From Elusimicrobia bacterium CG_4_9_14_3_um_filter_62_55 (GTDB lineage: Bacteria > Elusimicrobiota > Elusimicrobia > UBA1565), in NCBI GenBank assembly GCA_002790095.1, contig PFUL01000040.1, positions 1 through 58,996 of the forward strand: a stretch of 58,996 nt of DNA, written 5' to 3'. A program made the position numbers and the translations under genes. The notes beneath the pieces were generated by a model. It saw only the letters and a list, made by a program, of their open reading frames with translations. It was not told the origin of the DNA and did no database searches. Positions 7,768-17,413 of the stretch are shown piece by piece (position 1 is the stretch's first letter; every line of letters starts with the position of its first letter).

Positions 7768-9102
7768 CTACTTCGCCTCTATCGTCTCGATTCCTCCCAT
7801 ATACGGCTTGAGAGCGGCCGGAACCGTGACGGACCCGTCGGCGTTTTGATAATTCTCGAGCACCGCGACGAAAATTCGGCCGACCGCGAGTCCGGACCCG
7901 TTGAGCGTGTGCACCCACTCCACCTCCCCCTTCTTGCCGCCGACGGGAGCCCGCCGCATCCGGGCGTTCATGCGCCGAGCCTGGAAATCCCCGCAGTTGG
8001 AGCACGAGGAGACTTCGCGCCAGCGTTTCTCGCCGGGCAGCCACACCTCGAGGTCGTAGGTCTTCTTCGCCGCGAAACCGATATCGGCGGTGCACAGCTC
8101 GATCACCCGGTAGGGAAGTTCGAGCTTCTTTAAAATCGCCTCGGCGTGGGAGGTCAAGGACTCGAGCGCCGCCATGGATTGCTCGGGCTTGACGATCCAC
8201 ACCAGTTCCACCTTTTCGAATTGATGCTGCCGGATGAATCCCTTCACATCCTTTCCGTGGGACCCGGCCTCCTGGCGAAAACACGGCGTCAGGGCCGTCA
8301 TTTTCATCGGAAGGTCCGCTTCGTCGACGATCGTCTCGCGCACGACATTGGTCAGCGGTACTTCCGCGGTGGGGATCAGATAGTAGGAGTGCGATTTCGC
8401 GCCGTCCTCGGCCTCCTCCAACTGTCCGGTCTTGTACAAGTCCTCTTCGAACTTCGGCAGCTGTCCGGTTCCCTCGAGGATTTCGGGTCTCACGATGTAG
8501 GGAACCCACATTTCGGTGTAGCCGTGCTCGCGCGTGTGCGTGTCGATCATCAATTGCGAGATCGCCCGCTGCAGACGCGCCCCTTCGCCGCGAACCAGCG
8601 CGAACCGCGATCCCGAAAGCTTCGCCGCCGTTTCGAAATCGAACGCGCCGATTCCCTCTCCGACGCCGACATGATCCTTCGCCTCGAATCCCGGCTCGGC
8701 CGGCTTCCGGTCCCCTTCGCGCACGACCGGGTTGTCGGCCTCGGATTTTCCGACCGGGACGCTCGCGTCGGGAAGGTGGGGAAGGCTCAACAGCGCCGAA
8801 CGGGACTTCTGCGTGAGGGGTTCGAGCTCCGCTTCCTTCTCCGCCATCGCGTCCTTGAGAGAGGCGACCTCCTTCTTAAGCGCTTCCGCCCGCTCCCGGT
8901 CGCCCGAAGCCATGGCCTGTCCGATCGACTTCGACGCGTCGTTGCGCTTGGAGCGCATTTCCTCGACTTCCTGCAGCAGCGCGCGGTGGCGTTTGTCGGT
9001 TTCGAGGTACTCGTCGAGCGCGGGCAGATAACGCCCCCCGCGGTTTTCGATCCCCGTACGCGCGGCGCCGGGATCTTTACGGAGCAGTTTCGGATCGTTC
9101 AT
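7768..9102 (-). CDS. serS: Seryl-tRNA synthetase
   Basis: A 444-residue class II aminoacyl-tRNA synthetase. The N-terminal region (about 30-100) is the long antiparallel coiled coil that binds the tRNA-Ser variable arm. The core has motif 2 in LTPCFRQEAGSHGKDVKGF and the serine-site TAEVPLTN. The C-terminal SSCSNCGDFQARRMNAR and LNGSGLAVGR segments complete the active site. It charges tRNA-Ser (and tRNA-Sec where present). The gene overlaps the upstream exported-protein gene by 26 bases, which suggests they are co-transcribed, though no functional link is apparent. Confidence 0.97.
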   Translation of the reverse strand: MNDPKLLRKDPGAARTGIENRGGRYLPALDEYLETDKRHRALLQEVEEMRSKRNDASKSIGQAMASGDRERAEALKKEVASLKDAMAEKEAELEPLTQKSRSALLSLPHLPDASVPVGKSEADNPVVREGDRKPAEPGFEAKDHVGVGEGIGAFDFETAAKLSGSRFALVRGEGARLQRAISQLMIDTHTREHGYTEMWVPYIVRPEILEGTGQLPKFEEDLYKTGQLEEAEDGAKSHSYYLIPTAEVPLTNVVRETIVDEADLPMKMTALTPCFRQEAGSHGKDVKGFIRQHQFEKVELVWIVKPEQSMAALESLTSHAEAILKKLELPYRVIELCTADIGFAAKKTYDLEVWLPGEKRWREVSSCSNCGDFQARRMNARMRRAPVGGKKGEVEWVHTLNGSGLAVGRIFVAVLENYQNADGSVTVPAALKPYMGGIETIEAK

Positions 9103-9661
9103 CGGTTTCTTCCTCGGGGGTCGTCGCGCGCGGCTCCGGCCGCCAAGCGACCGGGAGCGTCGTTTCCCGGACGCGGCGGTCCAGCGTTTCGCCCGGTCGG
9201 GGTTCGATCATCACGCGCACGCGAAACGCGTCGGGCCAAAAGCCCGCACGGTACATCTTCTTTAAGTAGCCGTCCAACGCGACCCGGTTAAGAGGAAGCG
9301 CTACGTCGAATTTCTTGCCCCCGCCCACGACCGGAACGCGCTTTTCATCGTTCAAAAAAGGAACCGTCCATACACCGTCGGCGCTCGTCCCGATCCTGCG
9401 CAGGCGCGCGTCGACGCAATAGCGCAAAAGGACCGCGTGTTCGGCGGCGGCGTTGGGGTTTTCCAGCGTCACGTACGCTCGCGGCAAAGACCGTTTCGGG
9501 ACCGGATTCGGGGGGAACATCCAATGATCGACGCGGTGAAACTGGGGATTCTGCTTGCGCATGCGGATGGACAACTCCCACCCGGCGTCCGCGATCAGGA
9601 CCTCAGCCGCGACCGGGATGGAAAACGACAGTAGAAGCGCAACGATCCCGAGTTTCTTCAT
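9077..9661 (-). CDS. Exported protein of unknown function upstream of serS
   Basis: A 194-residue product. I chose the ATG at 9661 because it begins a textbook signal peptide (MKKLGIVALLLSFSIPVAAE); an in-frame start 18 bases upstream would add residues ahead of the lysines. The mature part, with RAYVTLENPNAAAEHAVLL followed by extended strands, could be an immunoglobulin-like beta domain. No family or active site was recognised. Its 3' end overlaps serS by 26 bases and no Shine-Dalgarno is visible. Confidence 0.6.
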   Translation of the reverse strand: MKKLGIVALLLSFSIPVAAEVLIADAGWELSIRMRKQNPQFHRVDHWMFPPNPVPKRSLPRAYVTLENPNAAAEHAVLLRYCVDARLRRIGTSADGVWTVPFLNDEKRVPVVGGGKKFDVALPLNRVALDGYLKKMYRAGFWPDAFRVRVMIEPRPGETLDRRVRETTLPVAWRPEPRATTPEEETDERSETAP

Positions 9662-9688
9662 AAGAAGCGATTCTACCAAAACCGCGGT

Positions 9689-11014
9689 TCAGGGGCGGGC
9701 GCGGCGCAGGCGCGGTCCGACCAGCCGCATCAGCCAGCGGCGATCTTCAGGACCGAACAAACACCAAACGATCCCGGCGTCGGCGCGGCAGTCGAGCCAC
9801 GGAGAATCGTCAAAAAGCACGACATTCTCGGCCCGGCGGCTCAAGAAGCGCACGGACGCCGGAAATCCCCGCACGCTCCAAAACAACGGGGTTCTCTCGA
9901 GCAGGGCCTTGAGGACCTTGGGAAGCCGTCCGGCCCGAAGCGCGGCGTCCCGCAGCCAAAGAGTCCTGCGCAGGTCCACCGCCAAAGCCCCGAGCGCCTC
10001 GCCATGACCCGACGCTTCTTCCGGGGTACGCAATCGCCCGTTATCGAACAGCGCGTTCAATCGCGCGGCCTGGGAGATCAATAGCCCACCCGTTCGCGCC
10101 GCCCGATTCGTTTGCGTTCTGATCTCCCGGCGCATCAAGGAAACCGTCGCGGCATCGACGGCTTCCCGCATCCGCTCAAACGACTCGTCCTCCGTAAAGG
10201 CTTCCTGGGAGGCGTTCATCCCCCATCTTCCGGAATCCACCCACGCCTCGACCGCGGCGCGCGCGTTGTCGAATTCTCCGTCCTCGATGGAGACGCCGTC
10301 CAAGGACGGGTGCAGGACGCTCCGGACCCGCTCCGCCGCATTCCCGGATACCTCCAACGGCCGAACGCGGCCGCGGAAACCGAATTTGCCGACGGCCGCC
10401 TCGCCATAGCGCCGCCCGGCTCTGCGGTATTCCTCGATCTCGGCGGAGATCGATTTTCCCTCGAAAAAAATCTCGGCGCGGCTCTGCTCGACGCGCCGCT
10501 CGATCGACTCCGAATCGGCGCGCGCGATGCGAAGCGAGCGCCACAACGGCCAACGGATTCGGATCTCGTTGAGGTCCCCGTCGCGGGAGGCCTTCGAAAG
10601 ACGCCGCTGTCCGCGAAGCACGCCGGTCAACGACAGGCGTCGGTCCAATCCCTCGGTACCGGAAAGCACCGTGATGAACTCCGGCTTTTCCCGCAGTTCC
10701 CGCAGCAGCGCCCGGGCGCAGTGGAGTTCATGGCGCGGCCAACCCTCGCGGTCGTCGAGCAAACAGAGAAACGGATCCTCCAGGAAACGCCGGGAAAAGC
10801 CCGCCCCGTCGAAGCTCACCGTGAATTCGCGCAAGGTTCTCTTGAGGCGTATCCCTTCGGCCCCGGCGGCGTTCGCCGCGCGAATCCAGAGCAATTCGGG
10901 CGGGAGATCGGTTCCGGCCTGAAAATCCCGGATTTTCTCGATCGCGCGCGCGGAGTCGATCCGGAACGAGCCCGCCTCGACGAAGATTCCATCGTCCGGT
11001 TTCGAGGGCGTCAT
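9689..11014 (-). CDS. Unknown protein translationally coupled to rtcB
   Basis: The start is taken as the ATG at 11014, which overlaps the rtcB stop in ATGA; the open frame reaches further into rtcB only by chance. The 441-residue product opens with a short charged stretch, then LLWIRAANAAGAEGIRLKR followed by FTVSFDGAGF. That layout recalls the N and G1 boxes of GHKL/HSP90-type ATPase domains, but the key acidic and asparagine residues are not clearly kept, so ATPase activity is doubtful. The rest is arginine-rich and helical with no known domain. The coupling to RtcB suggests a role in RNA end repair or its control. That function is inferred only from position. Confidence 0.6.
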   Translation of the reverse strand: MTPSKPDDGIFVEAGSFRIDSARAIEKIRDFQAGTDLPPELLWIRAANAAGAEGIRLKRTLREFTVSFDGAGFSRRFLEDPFLCLLDDREGWPRHELHCARALLRELREKPEFITVLSGTEGLDRRLSLTGVLRGQRRLSKASRDGDLNEIRIRWPLWRSLRIARADSESIERRVEQSRAEIFFEGKSISAEIEEYRRAGRRYGEAAVGKFGFRGRVRPLEVSGNAAERVRSVLHPSLDGVSIEDGEFDNARAAVEAWVDSGRWGMNASQEAFTEDESFERMREAVDAATVSLMRREIRTQTNRAARTGGLLISQAARLNALFDNGRLRTPEEASGHGEALGALAVDLRRTLWLRDAALRAGRLPKVLKALLERTPLFWSVRGFPASVRFLSRRAENVVLFDDSPWLDCRADAGIVWCLFGPEDRRWLMRLVGPRLRRARP

Positions 11015-12447
11015 CCCTTCAGGACTCCCAAGGGTCGCATCCGCGCGACCTTCGCGGCCAGCCCCGCGCGGACGCAGACCTCGACGACCTCTGAAACATC
11101 CTTGTACGCGAACGGCGCCTCCTCGGCAAGCCCCCGACGCGAGTCGGTGCGCACCGAAATCCCGCGCGCGGCCAATTCCTCGGCGAGAGCGTCCCCGCGG
11201 ATCCGCCGGGCCGCTTGCGTGCGGCTCATCATCCGGCCCGCGCCGTGGCACACCGTCCCGAAGGTTTCCAGCATCGCGGTCTGCGTTCCGGCGAGCACGA
11301 AGGAAAAAGTCCCCATCGATCCGGGGACGAACACCGGCTGTCCGACGGAGCGGTAGCGCTCCGGGACGTCCGGGTGTCCGGCGGGGAACGCCCGCGTCGC
11401 TCCCTTGCGGTGAACGCAGAGGGTTCTCTCCACGCCCCGAACGCTGTGGCGCTCGAACTTCGCGATGTTGTGACTGACATCGTAGACGACGCCCATCCCC
11501 AGTTCCACCCCCGAAGCGCCGAGCGCCTGCTGCGCGGCCTCCCGCAGCAGATGCGTGATCACCTGGCGGTTCGCGCGCGCAAAATTAGAACCGGCGTTCA
11601 TCGCGCCGAGATAGGCCCGGCCTTCCGCAGAGGCGATCGGGGCGCAGGCCAGTTGGCGGTCCGGAAGGGATATGCCATAGCGCTTCCCCGCGGCCCCCAT
11701 CGTCTTCAGTGAATCGGTGCAGATTTGGTAGCCGCAGCCGCGCGAGCCGGTGTGAATCAGCGCGACGAACTGCCCTTCGAAGAGCCCGAACGCCGCGGCC
11801 GTGGCGGCGTCGTAAATCGCGTCCACTTCCTGAAGCTCCAAAAAGTGATTGCCGCTCCCCAGGGTTCCGATCTGGGAACACCCCCTTTCGATCGCCCGTT
11901 CTCCGACCGCGTCCGGATCGGCCCCGTCCACCGCCCCGGCGTCCTCGATCGTCTCCAAGTCCCCCGGCTCGCCGAAGCCGCGCTCCACGGCCCAGCGCGC
12001 GCCGCGCGCGAATACGCCCCGCATCTCCGGCTTCGCGACGCGGAGCCCGCCGCCTTTTCCGACGCCGGAGGCGACCGTCCGATGCAGTTCGTCGAGCAGC
12101 GCCTCCTTCGCCTTGCCGACGCGGCGGGCCGTGACGTTCGAGCGCAGCAACCGAACCCCGCAGGAGATGTCGTAGCCGACCATTCCCGGCGACACGACGC
12201 CGTCCTTGGCGTCCATGGCGGCGACGCCGCCGACCGGAGCTCCGTATCCCCAATGGCAGTCCGGCATCGCCAAGGACGCCCCGACGATCCCGGGGAGATG
12301 GGCGACATTGGCGACCTGTTCGGCGACGCGTTCGCGTTCGATCTTCGAGATCATCGCCTCCGACGCGAAAATCCTTCCCGGAACGCGCATGCCTCCCGTT
12401 TTCGGCAGTTCGAATCGGCAATCGTCCAGTTTGCGCAGGCGCATCAC
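11011..12447 (-). CDS. rtcB: RtcB RNA ligase (3'-phosphate/5'-OH, GTP-dependent)
   Basis: A 478-residue RtcB. The metal and nucleotide site is intact: GYDISCGVRLL (Asp, Cys), GSGNHFLELQEV, HTGSRGCGYQ, DVSHNIAKF and HRKGATRAFPAG (guanylylated His region lies C-terminal to these), plus GSMGTFSFV. RtcB joins RNA 2',3'-cyclic phosphate or 3'-phosphate ends to 5'-OH ends and is activated by archease, encoded here at 16994-17413. The start is GTG at 12447, five bases after a TATAAT box; the ATG at 12444 is an alternative. The next gene is coupled by an ATGA overlap. No RtcR-type regulator is nearby, unlike the E. coli rtc operon. Confidence 0.95.
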   Translation of the reverse strand: MMRLRKLDDCRFELPKTGGMRVPGRIFASEAMISKIERERVAEQVANVAHLPGIVGASLAMPDCHWGYGAPVGGVAAMDAKDGVVSPGMVGYDISCGVRLLRSNVTARRVGKAKEALLDELHRTVASGVGKGGGLRVAKPEMRGVFARGARWAVERGFGEPGDLETIEDAGAVDGADPDAVGERAIERGCSQIGTLGSGNHFLELQEVDAIYDAATAAAFGLFEGQFVALIHTGSRGCGYQICTDSLKTMGAAGKRYGISLPDRQLACAPIASAEGRAYLGAMNAGSNFARANRQVITHLLREAAQQALGASGVELGMGVVYDVSHNIAKFERHSVRGVERTLCVHRKGATRAFPAGHPDVPERYRSVGQPVFVPGSMGTFSFVLAGTQTAMLETFGTVCHGAGRMMSRTQAARRIRGDALAEELAARGISVRTDSRRGLAEEAPFAYKDVSEVVEVCVRAGLAAKVARMRPLGVLKG

Positions 12448-12452
12448 GCCTC

Positions 12453-12458
12453 ATTATA
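12453..12458 (-). promoter_or_regulatory. rtcB -10 box, predicted leaderless
   Basis: A perfect TATAAT on the minus strand ends five bases before the GTG start of rtcB. No good -35 box is present at normal spacing, so activity may depend on an activator or on an extended element. Confidence 0.5.
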
Positions 12459-12499
12459 GAGGACTTGACGATTTCCCGCGAGCCGCGCACCGTATGCTC

Positions 12500-13903
12500 A
12501 TGAAAAGGCGCTGGGCCATGGCGGCGGCGGGAATTCTCGTCCTCGGATCCGCCGTCTCGCACATCGGAGTGCGGGGAGTGATCGCGGAGGCCCTGCTGCC
12601 GCCGTTGTACGCCTGGGAATACTTCCATCGCGTGCTGGACCCGCGCCTGCCGCCTTCCCCCACACCGTCGATCCGCGATCCGCGGCCCCTTCACCTGCAG
12701 GCCGAAGCCATGCGCGCGGACCTCGAACGGACCTTTCTGATTGAAGACGGAAAACTGCTGGTGCTCAACCGTCCCGACTCCCACCTCGGCGACGTTTGCC
12801 TGTGGCAAGGGGTCTACGCCGCGACCGCGATTTTCGAGTGGCGCCTGCTCCCGACCGAGCGCAACCTGAAGGCCGCCGAGGCGGCGTTCGACGGCCTGGC
12901 CCTGCTGGCGACGAAGGGCAATCCCCTCGCGCGCTCGATTTATCCGGCCTCGCTGCAGACCGAACCGGGCGGCATCCAGTACCACCGCGACGAGAATCGG
13001 CAATGGAAGGAGGACGCGAGCATCGATTCCACCGCAGGGTGGATGTTCGGCATGGCCGTCGCGCTGCGGTTTCTGCCCAGCCGGCGAGCCGCCGCCCTCG
13101 CCGAACTTAGGAAGTACGCCGACGCGCTGATCGCCTCGGGATACCGTCTGGAAAACTCGGACGGCACGCCGACGCGTTTTCACCGCGTGGGAGGCGCCTG
13201 GCTCAATTCTCCGGTCGGCGTGCTGACGACGATGACCGCGCTGCGCGCGCTCGCCCACACGCCGGGGGGGGAACAGTATCTTCGCGAATGGGCACGCTTC
13301 CGGCGCGAACGGCAGGATCGCTGGGCGGCCTTCGCCTCTGGTCCGGCCCTCTGGCGCAATCAAACCACCAATCACAACATCGCGCATCTCGCGTTGAGCG
13401 CGGCGCTTTTAGTCGAAGACGATCTCGACACCGGAGGACGCTACGCGAACGGACTCGCGCGGCTTGAACGACTGACCTTTCACGAGGGCAACTCCTTTTG
13501 GATCTACCTCTCGATCTGGACTTTGGACGATTTTCGAGTGCGGCGCCGAACACTTCCCGCGGCGGCCGCGGCCTGGCTCGCAGGGAGGAACGATCACCTG
13601 GCGCGCGCGCGCCCGGCTATGTTCGAATGGAATTACCCGGAAAATAAAATGCGCGCCGAACGCCTGAACTCGGAGCGCTCCGAAATAGAGTTCGTCAAAT
13701 GGCCGTTCGGCCCGCGAACGCCGAAGCGGCCGATCCCGGTCTGGCAGCGACCCGCCTCCGACTTCGTCTGGCAGCGCCCGGCCCGCGCGCTCGACGATTG
13801 GCGCAAGCTCGAAGACAAGACGCCGCTGCGTTTCGCGCCGATGGATTTTCTGGCGGCCTACCGTCTCGGGCTTCTGATCGGGGCTTTATCGCCGGAGCAA
13901 TAG
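12500..13903 (+). CDS. Membrane-anchored or exported (alpha/alpha)6-barrel-like protein
   Basis: About 467 residues from the ATG at 12500 (an ATG two codons earlier is also possible). The N-terminus KRRWAMAAAGILVLGSAVSH is a single hydrophobic anchor or signal. The body has helix-pair repeats such as GDVCLWQGVYAATAIFEWRL, DASIDSTAGWMFGMAVALRF and NHNIAHLALSAALL, the pattern of six-hairpin glycosidase folds that process polysaccharides. Near the C-terminus two short repeats, PVWQRPASDF and FVWQRPARAL, occur back to back. No catalytic residues can be assigned. The gene is divergent from rtcB and is followed nine bases later by the DUF885 gene, so these two probably form an operon. Confidence 0.6.
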   Translation: MKRRWAMAAAGILVLGSAVSHIGVRGVIAEALLPPLYAWEYFHRVLDPRLPPSPTPSIRDPRPLHLQAEAMRADLERTFLIEDGKLLVLNRPDSHLGDVCLWQGVYAATAIFEWRLLPTERNLKAAEAAFDGLALLATKGNPLARSIYPASLQTEPGGIQYHRDENRQWKEDASIDSTAGWMFGMAVALRFLPSRRAAALAELRKYADALIASGYRLENSDGTPTRFHRVGGAWLNSPVGVLTTMTALRALAHTPGGEQYLREWARFRRERQDRWAAFASGPALWRNQTTNHNIAHLALSAALLVEDDLDTGGRYANGLARLERLTFHEGNSFWIYLSIWTLDDFRVRRRTLPAAAAAWLAGRNDHLARARPAMFEWNYPENKMRAERLNSERSEIEFVKWPFGPRTPKRPIPVWQRPASDFVWQRPARALDDWRKLEDKTPLRFAPMDFLAAYRLGLLIGALSPEQ

Positions 13904-13912
13904 GACCCCGCG

Positions 13913-15448
13913 ATGCTTGTCTCGTCGATGATCGCGTTTCTTCTCACGGCCGCTCCCGCCTCCGCGCGCCCTGCACGCTCCGTCGCTCTTCTGGAAATCA
14001 CGGCGGAGGACTTTTGGAGAGCCTACCACGCCGCCCACCCGCTGGAAGCCGTGCGAAACGACGTACGCGGCGCCGGCCGCCTTCCGGACTACTCGCCGCG
14101 CGCCGCGCGCGCGGCCCGGGCGCGCTTCGCCGAACTCTCCCGGCGGATGCGCCGCATCCCCGCCGCCGGACTCTCCGCCGAAGAGCGCATCACCCGCGAG
14201 GCCCTGTCGTTTTGGATCGAGCGTGAACGCGCCGCCGCGTCTTCGGACACGGACGCGTGGCGCTTGGACCCCGCGTTCGCGCTCTACGCCGCGCGCCTGC
14301 TCTCCCGTCGTTACGATCCCGCTTCCGAAGAATTCCGGTCGCGGATTCGGGAGATTCCGATTTATCTCGCCGGACGCGAAAAGTCCCTGCGCCGCGGTCT
14401 CGCCTCCGGCGCGGTCGCGGCAGCCGTCTCAGTCGAACGGACCGCCGAGGCCGTTGAACGCTTCGCGGCCTCGCCGCCTCCGGGGTGGGCGTCGGTCGCT
14501 CCCGCGTACCGGCGCTACGCGGAATTTCTTCGCCGGGAATTGCTCCCGCGGGCGCGTTCCGACGACTCCCCGGGCTTGATCTCCCTTCCCGGGGGGCCGA
14601 GGCTTTACCGCCTCCTGCTGCGCCGCCGCTTCGGAATCGACCGCGACCCCGCCGCGCTGCACGCCGACGGTCTCGCGGCGATCGCGCGCTTAGGCCTCCC
14701 CCCCGCCCCAAAACGGCGCTTCGCCTCCTCCGAGCGGCGGTTGCGGGAGGCTCGAAACCGTTCGAACGCCGCCGCGGCCGAGCTTCCCCGCTTCTTTGCC
14801 GTCATCCCGAACGCCTCACCGACGATCGCCGCATTGCCGCAATACGAACAAAAAGACGCCCCTGCGGGACGCTATGACTCGGGCATGATCGAACTCGGCG
14901 ACGTTCTCCCGTACGAACTGCCCGCGCTGCTCGCCCATGAAGGCCTTCCCGGCCATCACCTCGAACGCACAACCGCGCGCCGCGCGCCGGGTCTTCCGGA
15001 ATTTAGAAGGCGCTTGTCTCTGTCCGTGCATTGCGAGGGTTGGGCTCTGTACGCGGAGAGTCTCGCCGGGGAAATGGGCCTCTACAAAACCCCCGAGGAA
15101 CGCGCCGGCATGCTCGCCGCCCGCGCCTGGAGGGCGGCGCGCCTGGTCGTCGATACGGGGCTGCACGCAAAAGGGTGGAGCCGAAAAGACGCCGCCGCCT
15201 ATTTGCGCGCGCATACGCGGCTGTCCGAGAGGCGGATCGAAACGGAGGTCGTCGATCTGATCTCCAATCCCGGGCGCGGGGTTTCGTACTGGGTCGGCGC
15301 GTCCCTCATCGAGGAGCTTCGCGCGAACGCCGAGCGCACGTTGGGTCCGCGCTTCGATCTCAAGCGCTTCCATGACGCGATTCTCTCCGGAGGGGCGCTT
15401 CCGCCGATGCTGCTCGAGCGGCGCGTGCGCGCGCGGCTCGGATTCTAA
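13913..15448 (+). CDS. DUF885-family putative zinc metallopeptidase, exported
   Basis: A 511-residue protein with a signal peptide (MLVSSMIAFLLTAAPASA). The DUF885 hallmark is present: ALLAHEGLPGHHLE, an HExxPGHH zinc-site-like motif, followed by SVHCEGWALYAESLAGEMG, in which the glutamate would be a further ligand. Helices rich in Arg and Ala fill the N-terminal half. Family members are thought to be thermolysin-like or carboxypeptidase-like hydrolases, but few have been tested. An AGGA sequence eight bases before the ATG may serve as the ribosome-binding site, consistent with being second in an operon. Confidence 0.85.
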   Translation: MLVSSMIAFLLTAAPASARPARSVALLEITAEDFWRAYHAAHPLEAVRNDVRGAGRLPDYSPRAARAARARFAELSRRMRRIPAAGLSAEERITREALSFWIERERAAASSDTDAWRLDPAFALYAARLLSRRYDPASEEFRSRIREIPIYLAGREKSLRRGLASGAVAAAVSVERTAEAVERFAASPPPGWASVAPAYRRYAEFLRRELLPRARSDDSPGLISLPGGPRLYRLLLRRRFGIDRDPAALHADGLAAIARLGLPPAPKRRFASSERRLREARNRSNAAAAELPRFFAVIPNASPTIAALPQYEQKDAPAGRYDSGMIELGDVLPYELPALLAHEGLPGHHLERTTARRAPGLPEFRRRLSLSVHCEGWALYAESLAGEMGLYKTPEERAGMLAARAWRAARLVVDTGLHAKGWSRKDAAAYLRAHTRLSERRIETEVVDLISNPGRGVSYWVGASLIEELRANAERTLGPRFDLKRFHDAILSGGALPPMLLERRVRARLGF

Positions 15449-15470
15449 TTGATACACTTTGAGTCGAGCC

Positions 15471-16496
15471 ATGGCTATCGACGCCGACGTTAAAGACCTA
15501 TTGAAGCGCGTTTCGCGCTCGATGTACCTGAGCCTCTCGGTGCTGCCCGAGCCCGTGCGCGACGCGATGGGGTTGGGTTATCTCTTTTGCCGAGCCGCCG
15601 ACACCATCGCGGACACGCGGCTCGTGCCGTTGGAGAAGCGGCGCAAGACGCTCGACGAGTTTGGCGCCGCCTTCGACGGCGGCGCGACGGTAAAGGCCTC
15701 GCTCGCCGAGGGTTTCGCGCGGCATCAGGCCAGCCGCAGCGAGCGGGAACTCCTGGAGCGCCTCGGGGACTGCGTCGCTTTGTGGAAGCGCTTCCCCCAA
15801 CAGGAGCGCGTTCTGCTCCGGAGAGTCGTCGACGGGGTGGTCGAAGGGATGCGGATGGATCTCTCGCTATTCGGCGGGGACTCCGTCGAGACGCTGACGG
15901 CCTTCCCCGACGCGGAGACTCTCGATTCCTATTGCCACTACATCGGCGGTGAGCCCGGCCGCTTCTGGACCGATCTATGCCTGCTGCGCCTGCCCGAACT
16001 CAAACATCTCAACTCGGGGAAACTGCGAAAACAAGGCATCGCTCTCGGAAAGGGGCTGCAAATCACGAACATCCTCCGGGACATCTCCAAGGATCTGCGC
16101 ATCGGCCGCTGCTATCTGCCCCAACCGGAACTGAAGGGCGCGGGACTGTCGCCGAAGGATCTGCTCGATCCCGATTGCGTCGCGCGCCTGCGGCCCGTGC
16201 TGCGCAAATGGCTGGGGTGGGGGTTGGAGCATTTGGAGTCCGGAGCGGAGTATGTGCGCGCGCTCGACGGGCTGCGGCTTCGGGCCGCGGTGGCGTGGCC
16301 GCTGTTGCTGTCGCTCAAGACGCTCGCGATGGTGGCGAAGTCGCCGGACCTGCTTAAAGTAGAGGCGCGGGTGAAGATGTCGCGGGGGCAGGTCTACGGG
16401 TTGATCGCGGCGACGCCGTGGACGCTTTCCTCCAACGCCCGCTTCCAGCGCCGCTACAACCGGACGCGGCGTGAGTTAACCGCCGCTCTTTCCTAA
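15471..16496 (+). CDS. Squalene/phytoene synthase family protein
   Basis: A 341-residue all-helical prenyl synthase. Both aspartate motifs are present: DTIAD (residues 44-48) and DISKD (about 204-208, within LQITNILRDISKDLRIGRCY). These bind the diphosphates of two C15 or C20 prenyl diphosphates through magnesium. The early SMYLSLSVLPEPVRDAMGLG and overall length favour the squalene-synthase side over carotenoid CrtB. No desaturase or squalene-hopene cyclase lies nearby, so the product stays open. TACACT at 15453-15458 may be its -10 box. A TTG four codons upstream is a less likely start. Confidence 0.85.
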   Translation: MAIDADVKDLLKRVSRSMYLSLSVLPEPVRDAMGLGYLFCRAADTIADTRLVPLEKRRKTLDEFGAAFDGGATVKASLAEGFARHQASRSERELLERLGDCVALWKRFPQQERVLLRRVVDGVVEGMRMDLSLFGGDSVETLTAFPDAETLDSYCHYIGGEPGRFWTDLCLLRLPELKHLNSGKLRKQGIALGKGLQITNILRDISKDLRIGRCYLPQPELKGAGLSPKDLLDPDCVARLRPVLRKWLGWGLEHLESGAEYVRALDGLRLRAAVAWPLLLSLKTLAMVAKSPDLLKVEARVKMSRGQVYGLIAATPWTLSSNARFQRRYNRTRRELTAALS

Positions 16497-16695: not shown

Positions 16696-17010
16696 ATGGC
16701 ACGCAACGCGCACAAGAAGAACACGGTCAGCGAAGACCTCCCGTCGTGGGGGGAGTTGATCGGCGGGACCTTGGCCTACGCCCAGGACACCGTCGACTCG
16801 GTCGTCAATTGGGGCTTTCACAAACTGCGGGAAACCGCCGAAAAACCCCGCAAATCCGATAAACCTCGCCATCCGGCGATCGACACGGCCGCGACCGCGG
16901 CGCGCGCCACGGCCGGATTCATCGGGGAGATCGGCGAGAGCTTCTACGCCACCTACGACGCGCTCAAAGAAGACAAACGGAAAAAATCCAAAACTAAACG
17001 TCGAGAATAA
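16696..17010 (+). CDS. Small hypothetical protein
   Basis: A 104-residue, strongly basic protein with a central amphipathic part (WGELIGGTLAYAQDTVDSVV and AATAARATAGFIGEIGESFY) and a lysine/arginine-rich tail ([14 protein letters not shown]). There is no signal peptide or clear membrane helix. I do not recognise a family; the composition would suit membrane-surface or nucleic-acid binding. It overlaps the convergent archease gene by 17 bases at the 3' ends. Confidence 0.5.
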   Translation: MARNAHKKNTVSEDLPSWGELIGGTLAYAQDTVDSVVNWGFHKLRETAEKPRKSDKPRHPAIDTAATAARATAGFIGEIGESFYATYDALKEDKRKKSKTKRRE

Positions 17011-17413
17011 GCGAGGCCGTCAAGAGCCCCTCCTTTTCGACGACCGCCAGCCCGTGGTAGGTGGCGGCCTTCACCTCCGGGGAGACTCCCGCGTTTTCCG
17101 GCAGGAACGGACCGCTCACCGCGCACGCCAAGCCCCCCGCCCCCGCCGCGCTAAACGCGAAATCGCGCGGAATCTTTCCCGCGGAAAACAACAGGTGAAT
17201 CAATTCGTTGACCCAATCCACCAGCAGTTCCTCGGGAGAATCCGCCGACAATGAAACGCGGATTGTGAACGCAGACGGTCCGGAAAGCGGCGCAGCGCCG
17301 CAAACGGCGAGGAGCCCCTTCGCCGCCTGGCGAAAGAGCTCCTCGTAGGAATCCGCTTCGAGTCGGAGTCCGACCTCGGCCGTATGCGCGACGACGCGAA
17401 AGCGCCCGGTTAT
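16994..17413 (-). CDS. Archease, with an apparent ATA start overlapping the gyrA stop
   Basis: The 139-residue product matches archease from end to end: [19 protein letters not shown] at the N-terminus, [10 protein letters not shown] in the middle, and [11 protein letters not shown] followed by a final SLILDV. Archease helps RtcB become guanylylated and turn over during RNA ligation. The family motif HTAD is HTAE here, a conservative change at a metal-binding acidic position. No ATG, GTG or TTG exists in frame between 17788 and the conserved domain. The only fitting start is ATA at 17411-17413, in an ATAA overlap with the gyrA TAA, six bases after GGAGGG. A frameshift product of gyrA is the alternative. 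Confidence 0.8.

Follow-up and report, generated by a model that had tools for sequence, protein, structure and literature searches.

Does a gene that overlaps rtcB take part in the work of RtcB? The question arises in the stretch of DNA analysed here (58,996 nucleotides, hereafter the window), where rtcB (11011-12444, minus strand) encodes an RNA ligase of 477 aa (PF01139, E 2e-165), the sole match in the window genome, and runs into a gene for a 441-aa protein (P0001, 9689-11014, minus strand; hereafter the partner). As the original prediction had it, an ATGA joins the two genes: bases 11011-11014 of the minus strand, read directly, hold both the stop codon of rtcB and the start codon of the partner. 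It had also pointed to an archease gene in the window, which we found at 16997-17401 (minus strand) as the sole match in the genome, and had proposed the partner as an added part of RNA repair. Archease stands apart from rtcB here, although the two adjoin in several relatives; the genes that part them lie on the plus strand (12494-16496) and encode a 469-aa protein without a Pfam match, a DUF885 protein and a member of the squalene/phytoene synthase family, and blastp with the DUF885 and synthase genes found no match in those rtcB stretches of relatives that were searched. Behind the partner come a gene of ~190 aa (9077-9661, minus strand), which had no Pfam match, and serS (7768-9102, minus strand), the next gene in the conserved order. 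The partner looks like a real gene, because its codon score was 0.234 against 0.072 for the best other frame when it was left out of the training, and because it keeps the motifs of the family described below; its score ranks 14th lowest among the 40 window genes.

The partner had no match in Pfam, NCBIfam or PADLOC, nor in the PDB when searched as a single sequence. We rely for its identity on an AlphaFold2 model made from 25 sequences (pLDDT 81.4, pTM 0.80), with which Foldseek returned 519 matches at E 0.001 or better, and the best 50 of these 519 were all Hsp90-family PDB entries. VIA-align gave Z scores of 15-18 among the 50 Hsp90 entries listed, and against HSP90B a Z of 18.2 over 366 of the 441 residues (rmsd 5.6). 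Residues 11-441 of the model align on residues 11-538 of the HSP90B chain, so that the last residue of the partner falls on residue 538, which we take to be the end of the middle domain, with the C-terminal domain starting after it. Since the alignment stops there, the whole partner is predicted, on the strength of the model, to be an Hsp90 N-terminal (GHKL) domain plus middle domain without the C-terminal domain. A profile of 35 family members searched against the PDB pointed the same way weakly, with Hsp90-family chains in 8 of the 10 rows (E 0.5-1.6) and antibody Fc chains, which are chance rows, in the other two. The degenerate ATPase-like N-terminus read from the letters was thus correct as to a degenerate GHKL domain but understated, the whole protein being Hsp90-like in the model; the structure prediction that had been suggested as a check of the N-terminus returned the Hsp90 fold.

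With Hsp90, HtpG and TRAP1 (PF00183) the partner shares an N-terminal GHKL fold followed by a middle domain in the same order, but unlike them it has no ATPase residues, no C-terminal domain and no Pfam match. A canonical Hsp90 match above the cut-off is present separately in the window genome and in 3 of the 56 other genomes searched. An Hsp90-like fold is also found in phage RIIA, the second-ranked viral match of the partner model (E 1e-10), although the structural alignments show only 10-15% identity to the partner. RIIA proteins have a role in phage exclusion.

The partner is one of many. Its family had matches in 13 of 57 genomes (its own included), with 3-20 in each and 10 in the window genome. 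The partner scored 363 bits (E 1e-109) against the family profile, in whose alignment it is itself included, and 99 bits against a member from another genome (G004), a comparison independent of the profile; in the alignment it carries the family motifs SGSFRVD, FDG and LNASQ, and the strong motifs of the family, which are conserved in the alignment, are not those of the ATPase. Members were drawn from 15 genomes, one of them (G015) in part only. A scan of species genomes with one peptide pattern returned 20 loci; the titles of 19 read Elusimicrobia or Elusimicrobiota and that of the other "bacterium", so within the reach of that pattern the family appears to be one of Elusimicrobiota. Our searches of open-licence papers turned up no description of the family, and this family of catalytically dead Hsp90-like proteins looks new and unnamed.

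Many of the family genes lie directly behind a gene whose product, of ~575 aa, has an intact GHKL domain. This protein has a HATPase_c_3 match and scores 51.4 bits (cut-off 50) with the sacsin-type N-terminal ATP-binding domain. Its model (pLDDT 78.7, pTM 0.68) matches Hsp90s first (Z 15.9, rmsd 13.4), and the C-terminal part of the model is not settled. The dead and the intact families are colinear over the N and middle domains in hhalign (probability 98.2, E 5e-14). What parts the two, homologous and adjacent as the intact protein and the long-form dead members are, is the ATPase residues, which the intact protein keeps. The catalytic Glu, the Asn, DDGxGM and GxxGxG are present in 18/18 intact proteins. 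For the dead family the residue table holds 101 of the 111 called members, the remainder having failed length or start filters. The Mg-binding Asn and the first Asp of DDGxG were found in 0/101 dead members against 18/18 intact ones, the three Gly of GxxGxG together in 0/101, the catalytic Glu in 3/101 against 18/18, and the middle-domain Arg in 6/101 against 18/18. In the partner all of these (Glu, Asn, first Asp, GxxGxG and Arg) are absent at the aligned columns; it retains the second Asp with the Gly that follows, and has a Glu two columns off the catalytic position. A tree of the 119 sequences parts the 18 intact from the 101 dead at one edge with support 1.0. Judged by this residue loss, the partner and its family are predicted to be dead ATPases.

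The two families go together. Across 294 genomes of the phylum the dead family was found in 13 and the intact protein in 13, and these are the identical 13 (searches scoring five candidates per genome for the dead family and four for the intact protein); the intact protein has 1-4 matches per genome, the dead family 3-20. A dead member lies directly after the intact gene on the same strand in 18 of 19 readable loci, these 19 lying in stretches fetched around family members, and in the exception (L198) the dead neighbour is on the other strand. An unbiased list of 20 places of the intact gene includes 18 with a readable downstream side, and in 17 of these a dead member comes next; at the remaining two the contig ends first. 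Upstream of the intact gene, 7 of the 19 loci have an AAA+ gene and a ~330-aa gene, with a coiled-coil gene before these in six, and kinase, kinase-like and WD40 genes recur nearby. Neighbouring genes were called with a codon model trained on the window genes and clustered by single linkage, one cluster mixing family members with kinases and WD40 proteins. The window genome has its own intact-ATPase operon on contig C132. In this locus (L036, G000:C132) and in L045, L048, L195, L199 and L202 we observed an uncharacterised operon of coiled-coil protein, ~330-aa protein, AAA+ ATPase, intact Hsp90-like ATPase and long dead Hsp90, in some cases also with a ~112-aa protein and kinase-like/WD40 genes. 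Neither the partner nor the AAA+ protein had a plasmid match; the intact protein matched three plasmid records, through its GHKL part only.

Other members are scattered. Among the 105 with a readable upstream gene, 76 follow a gene that belongs neither to the intact nor to the dead family, and these upstream neighbours include transporter-like, nudix-like and rhodanese-like proteins (names read by eye), kinases and rtcB. The subclade of the partner has ten members (support 0.78), and no other copy in it is beside rtcB. When the flanks of the ten copies of the window genome were compared for signs of mobility, the sole match was between two neighbouring operon copies whose fetched flanks overlap, and around the partner we found short imperfect repeats only, with no mobile signature. 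As a separate observation, one locus (L049, G007:C161:1-7214) holds a head-to-tail array of dead Hsp90s, which comprises four ~500-aa frames, another of 284 aa where the contig ends, and a fragment of 59 aa; the four frames have ~230 extra N-terminal residues, which gave no Pfam match in the one tested.

How did a scattered copy come to lie beside rtcB? Among the 22 relatives with any rtcB match we read 19 rtcB loci, leaving out three partial matches, and a family member was next to rtcB in 0/19; in G001 a family copy lies ~6 kb from rtcB on the other strand. The conserved neighbourhood by which the original prediction was to be judged is absent from these loci. In eight relatives (G002, G004, G006, G007, G009, G011, G013 and G056) a homologue of the ~190-aa gene comes directly after rtcB, with -4 to +30 bases between the rtcB stop and its start, and serS is next in line. 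This empty site indicates that the window copy is an insertion between rtcB and the ~190-aa gene. The family is present elsewhere in six of these eight genomes and absent from the other two. Archease is upstream of rtcB in 6/8; of the other two stretches, one stops at a contig end and one is without an archease match, and G010 and G040 have archease after rtcB. In the window a promoter-like motif, TTTTGGTAGAATC (9669-9681, minus strand, direct reading), still immediately precedes the ~190-aa gene, and five relatives have similar motifs at this position. The partner sits upstream of TTTTGGTAGAATC.

The overlap itself is ordinary. Scattered copies overlap a co-directional upstream gene in 25/76 cases against 85/406 for neighbouring genes (p 0.026), and have an upstream gene within 25 bases in 35/76 against 155/406 (p 0.20). 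Moreover, rtcB ends in ATGA without the partner in 3 of the 10 relatives read at that point. Overlap with a well-known gene can mislead: the link to rtcB resembles a shared function and is an insertion.

The scattered copies diverge fast. Thirteen member pairs, from twelve locus pairs whose place is conserved, have open frames, with pN/pS of 0.36-0.90 (uncorrected for base composition). In 11/12 locus pairs the members have diverged further than the majority of the flanking genes compared with them, the exception being L142/L158, where the member is more conserved than 3/4 flanks. In six comparisons covering four locus groups, the divergence of the overlapping upstream gene roughly matches or exceeds that of the dead Hsp90. 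In three loci (L042 3272-5665, L043 5925-8396, L172 1206-3635) the overlapping upstream partner appears, on inspection by eye, to be a degenerate protein kinase fused to a propeller, with a Reg_prop match in L042, and these genes diverge at a rate similar to that of the dead Hsp90. RtcB shares 65-69% identity with its ten closest relatives, and so is not a fast-diverging partner of this sort; for comparison, serS is 55-64% identical in the seven with near full-length matches.

On balance, we think it probable that the partner is a scattered pseudo-Hsp90 copy inserted beside rtcB, and that its family provides non-catalytic subunits of the intact ATPase. The copy was placed between rtcB and the gene that is next to it in relatives, and the partner would be transcribed and translated along with rtcB without acting in RNA ligation, so that the link to rtcB looks incidental. 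The dead family would most likely supply non-catalytic subunits to the intact ATPase/AAA+ operon, acting either as partners of that ATPase or in substrate binding: a single engine with a varied set of adaptors, much as pseudokinases serve kinases. The Hsp90 fold, the colinear homology, the residue loss, the co-occurrence, the adjacency, the copy number and the insertion together point to this reading. Against it are the three members that keep a Glu at the catalytic column, the nearby Glu of the partner, the strand of the dead neighbour in L198, the raw correlation between the family and rtcB, and the fast divergence of the scattered copies, which would also fit relaxed selection. A fuller version, with the intact ATPase and its AAA+ partner using up to ~20 interchangeable dead subunits per genome, each co-expressed with its client, and with RtcB a client newly recruited by the insertion, seems to us unlikely. 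Hsp90 is usually one ATPase working as a homodimer, so many dead proteins of N and middle domains beside an intact relative would be a natural experiment on what the Hsp90 scaffold can do in the absence of ATP.

The main rival is a role in conflict. If the dead Hsp90s, kinases, kinase-like proteins and beta-propellers were sensors or decoys around an AAA+/Hsp90-like core, the scattered copies would be conflict or defence parts, which we regard as a possible but rather improbable account. The many divergent copies, the kinase and WD40 neighbours and the fast divergence of the copies together with the overlapping upstream genes in four locus groups would suit it. Operon proteins also match methylation-associated defence parts weakly, the AAA+ protein matching mad8 in PADLOC at E 1e-4 over 29 residues and the kinase-like/WD40 protein matching MAD6 with 28.6 bits (cut-off 460). 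For NTP-dependent conflict systems, inactive forms of enzymes have been described as effectors (PMC7159879, in which "hsp90" has 0 occurrences). Set against this, the dead proteins had no PADLOC match (the PADLOC search also gave weak coiled-coil matches), the GHKL-bearing models matched by the intact protein (TmtA, E 1e-11) cover ~85 residues only, several copies and the core operon hold their place between species, and RtcB is not fast-evolving.

That the scattered copies, the partner included, are decaying duplicates without function is very doubtful. Decay would explain the fast divergence, with pN/pS reaching 0.90, and the lost ATPase residues, and an internal stop does occur in two family matches of the 57-genome search, one of them in the window genome (C57), yet a 283-aa frame is open there. 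The other family matches have no internal stop, the partner shows unremarkable codon usage even if excluded from the training set, the non-ATPase motifs are conserved and, as noted, several copies keep their place between species. Least likely of all is the RNA-repair accessory, a dead Hsp90-like protein that would fold, guard or activate RtcB and whose synthesis would be coupled to that of RtcB by the ATGA. Besides the overlap and the archease in the window, it can draw on the distribution of genomes: some rtcB is present in 12/13 family-bearing genomes against 11/44 others (p 2e-5). The proposed check of co-occurrence was in this respect positive, but no signal is seen within lineages, since the two taxonomic families where the dead family is general gave counts of 10, 1, 1 and 0 (p 1), with too few family-less genomes to test well. 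One genome (G005) has the family and no rtcB match, and 4 of the 12 rtcB genes of family-bearing genomes belong to a distant subfamily (27-31% identical). RtcB and archease are both encoded in the window, but the position of the partner next to them is not conserved, six of the eight relatives with the empty site own the family elsewhere, and other copies adjoin many kinds of gene. The RNA-repair link was rejected on the relatives' rtcB loci and the empty site, despite the genome-level correlation.

The original prediction had further read a perfect -10 and a poor -35 box at rtcB as activator control. The boxes are as described: a TATAAT (12453-12458, minus strand) ends 8 bases before the rtcB ATG, and no promoter of two hexamers came out of our scan of 8900-12700, which agrees with a poor -35. 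The lone -10 can be explained without activator control, because a -10 close to the start is common in the clade. Of 338 first-in-unit genes in the window and the family loci, 51 have a -10-like hexamer whose end lies 5-9 bases upstream of the start codon, against a mean of 2.0 and a maximum of 7 in shuffles and one gene at 45-49 bases; in the window genome alone the count is 5/59. A Shine-Dalgarno core precedes 1/51 of these genes against 89/287 of the others, and a start-proximal -10 without a Shine-Dalgarno is a sign of leaderless mRNAs in the clade. Examples in the window are 12453-12458 and 9670-9675. The TATAAT of rtcB fits the leaderless -10 pattern of the clade, and since a GAGG follows it, rtcB may have both a -10 and a Shine-Dalgarno.
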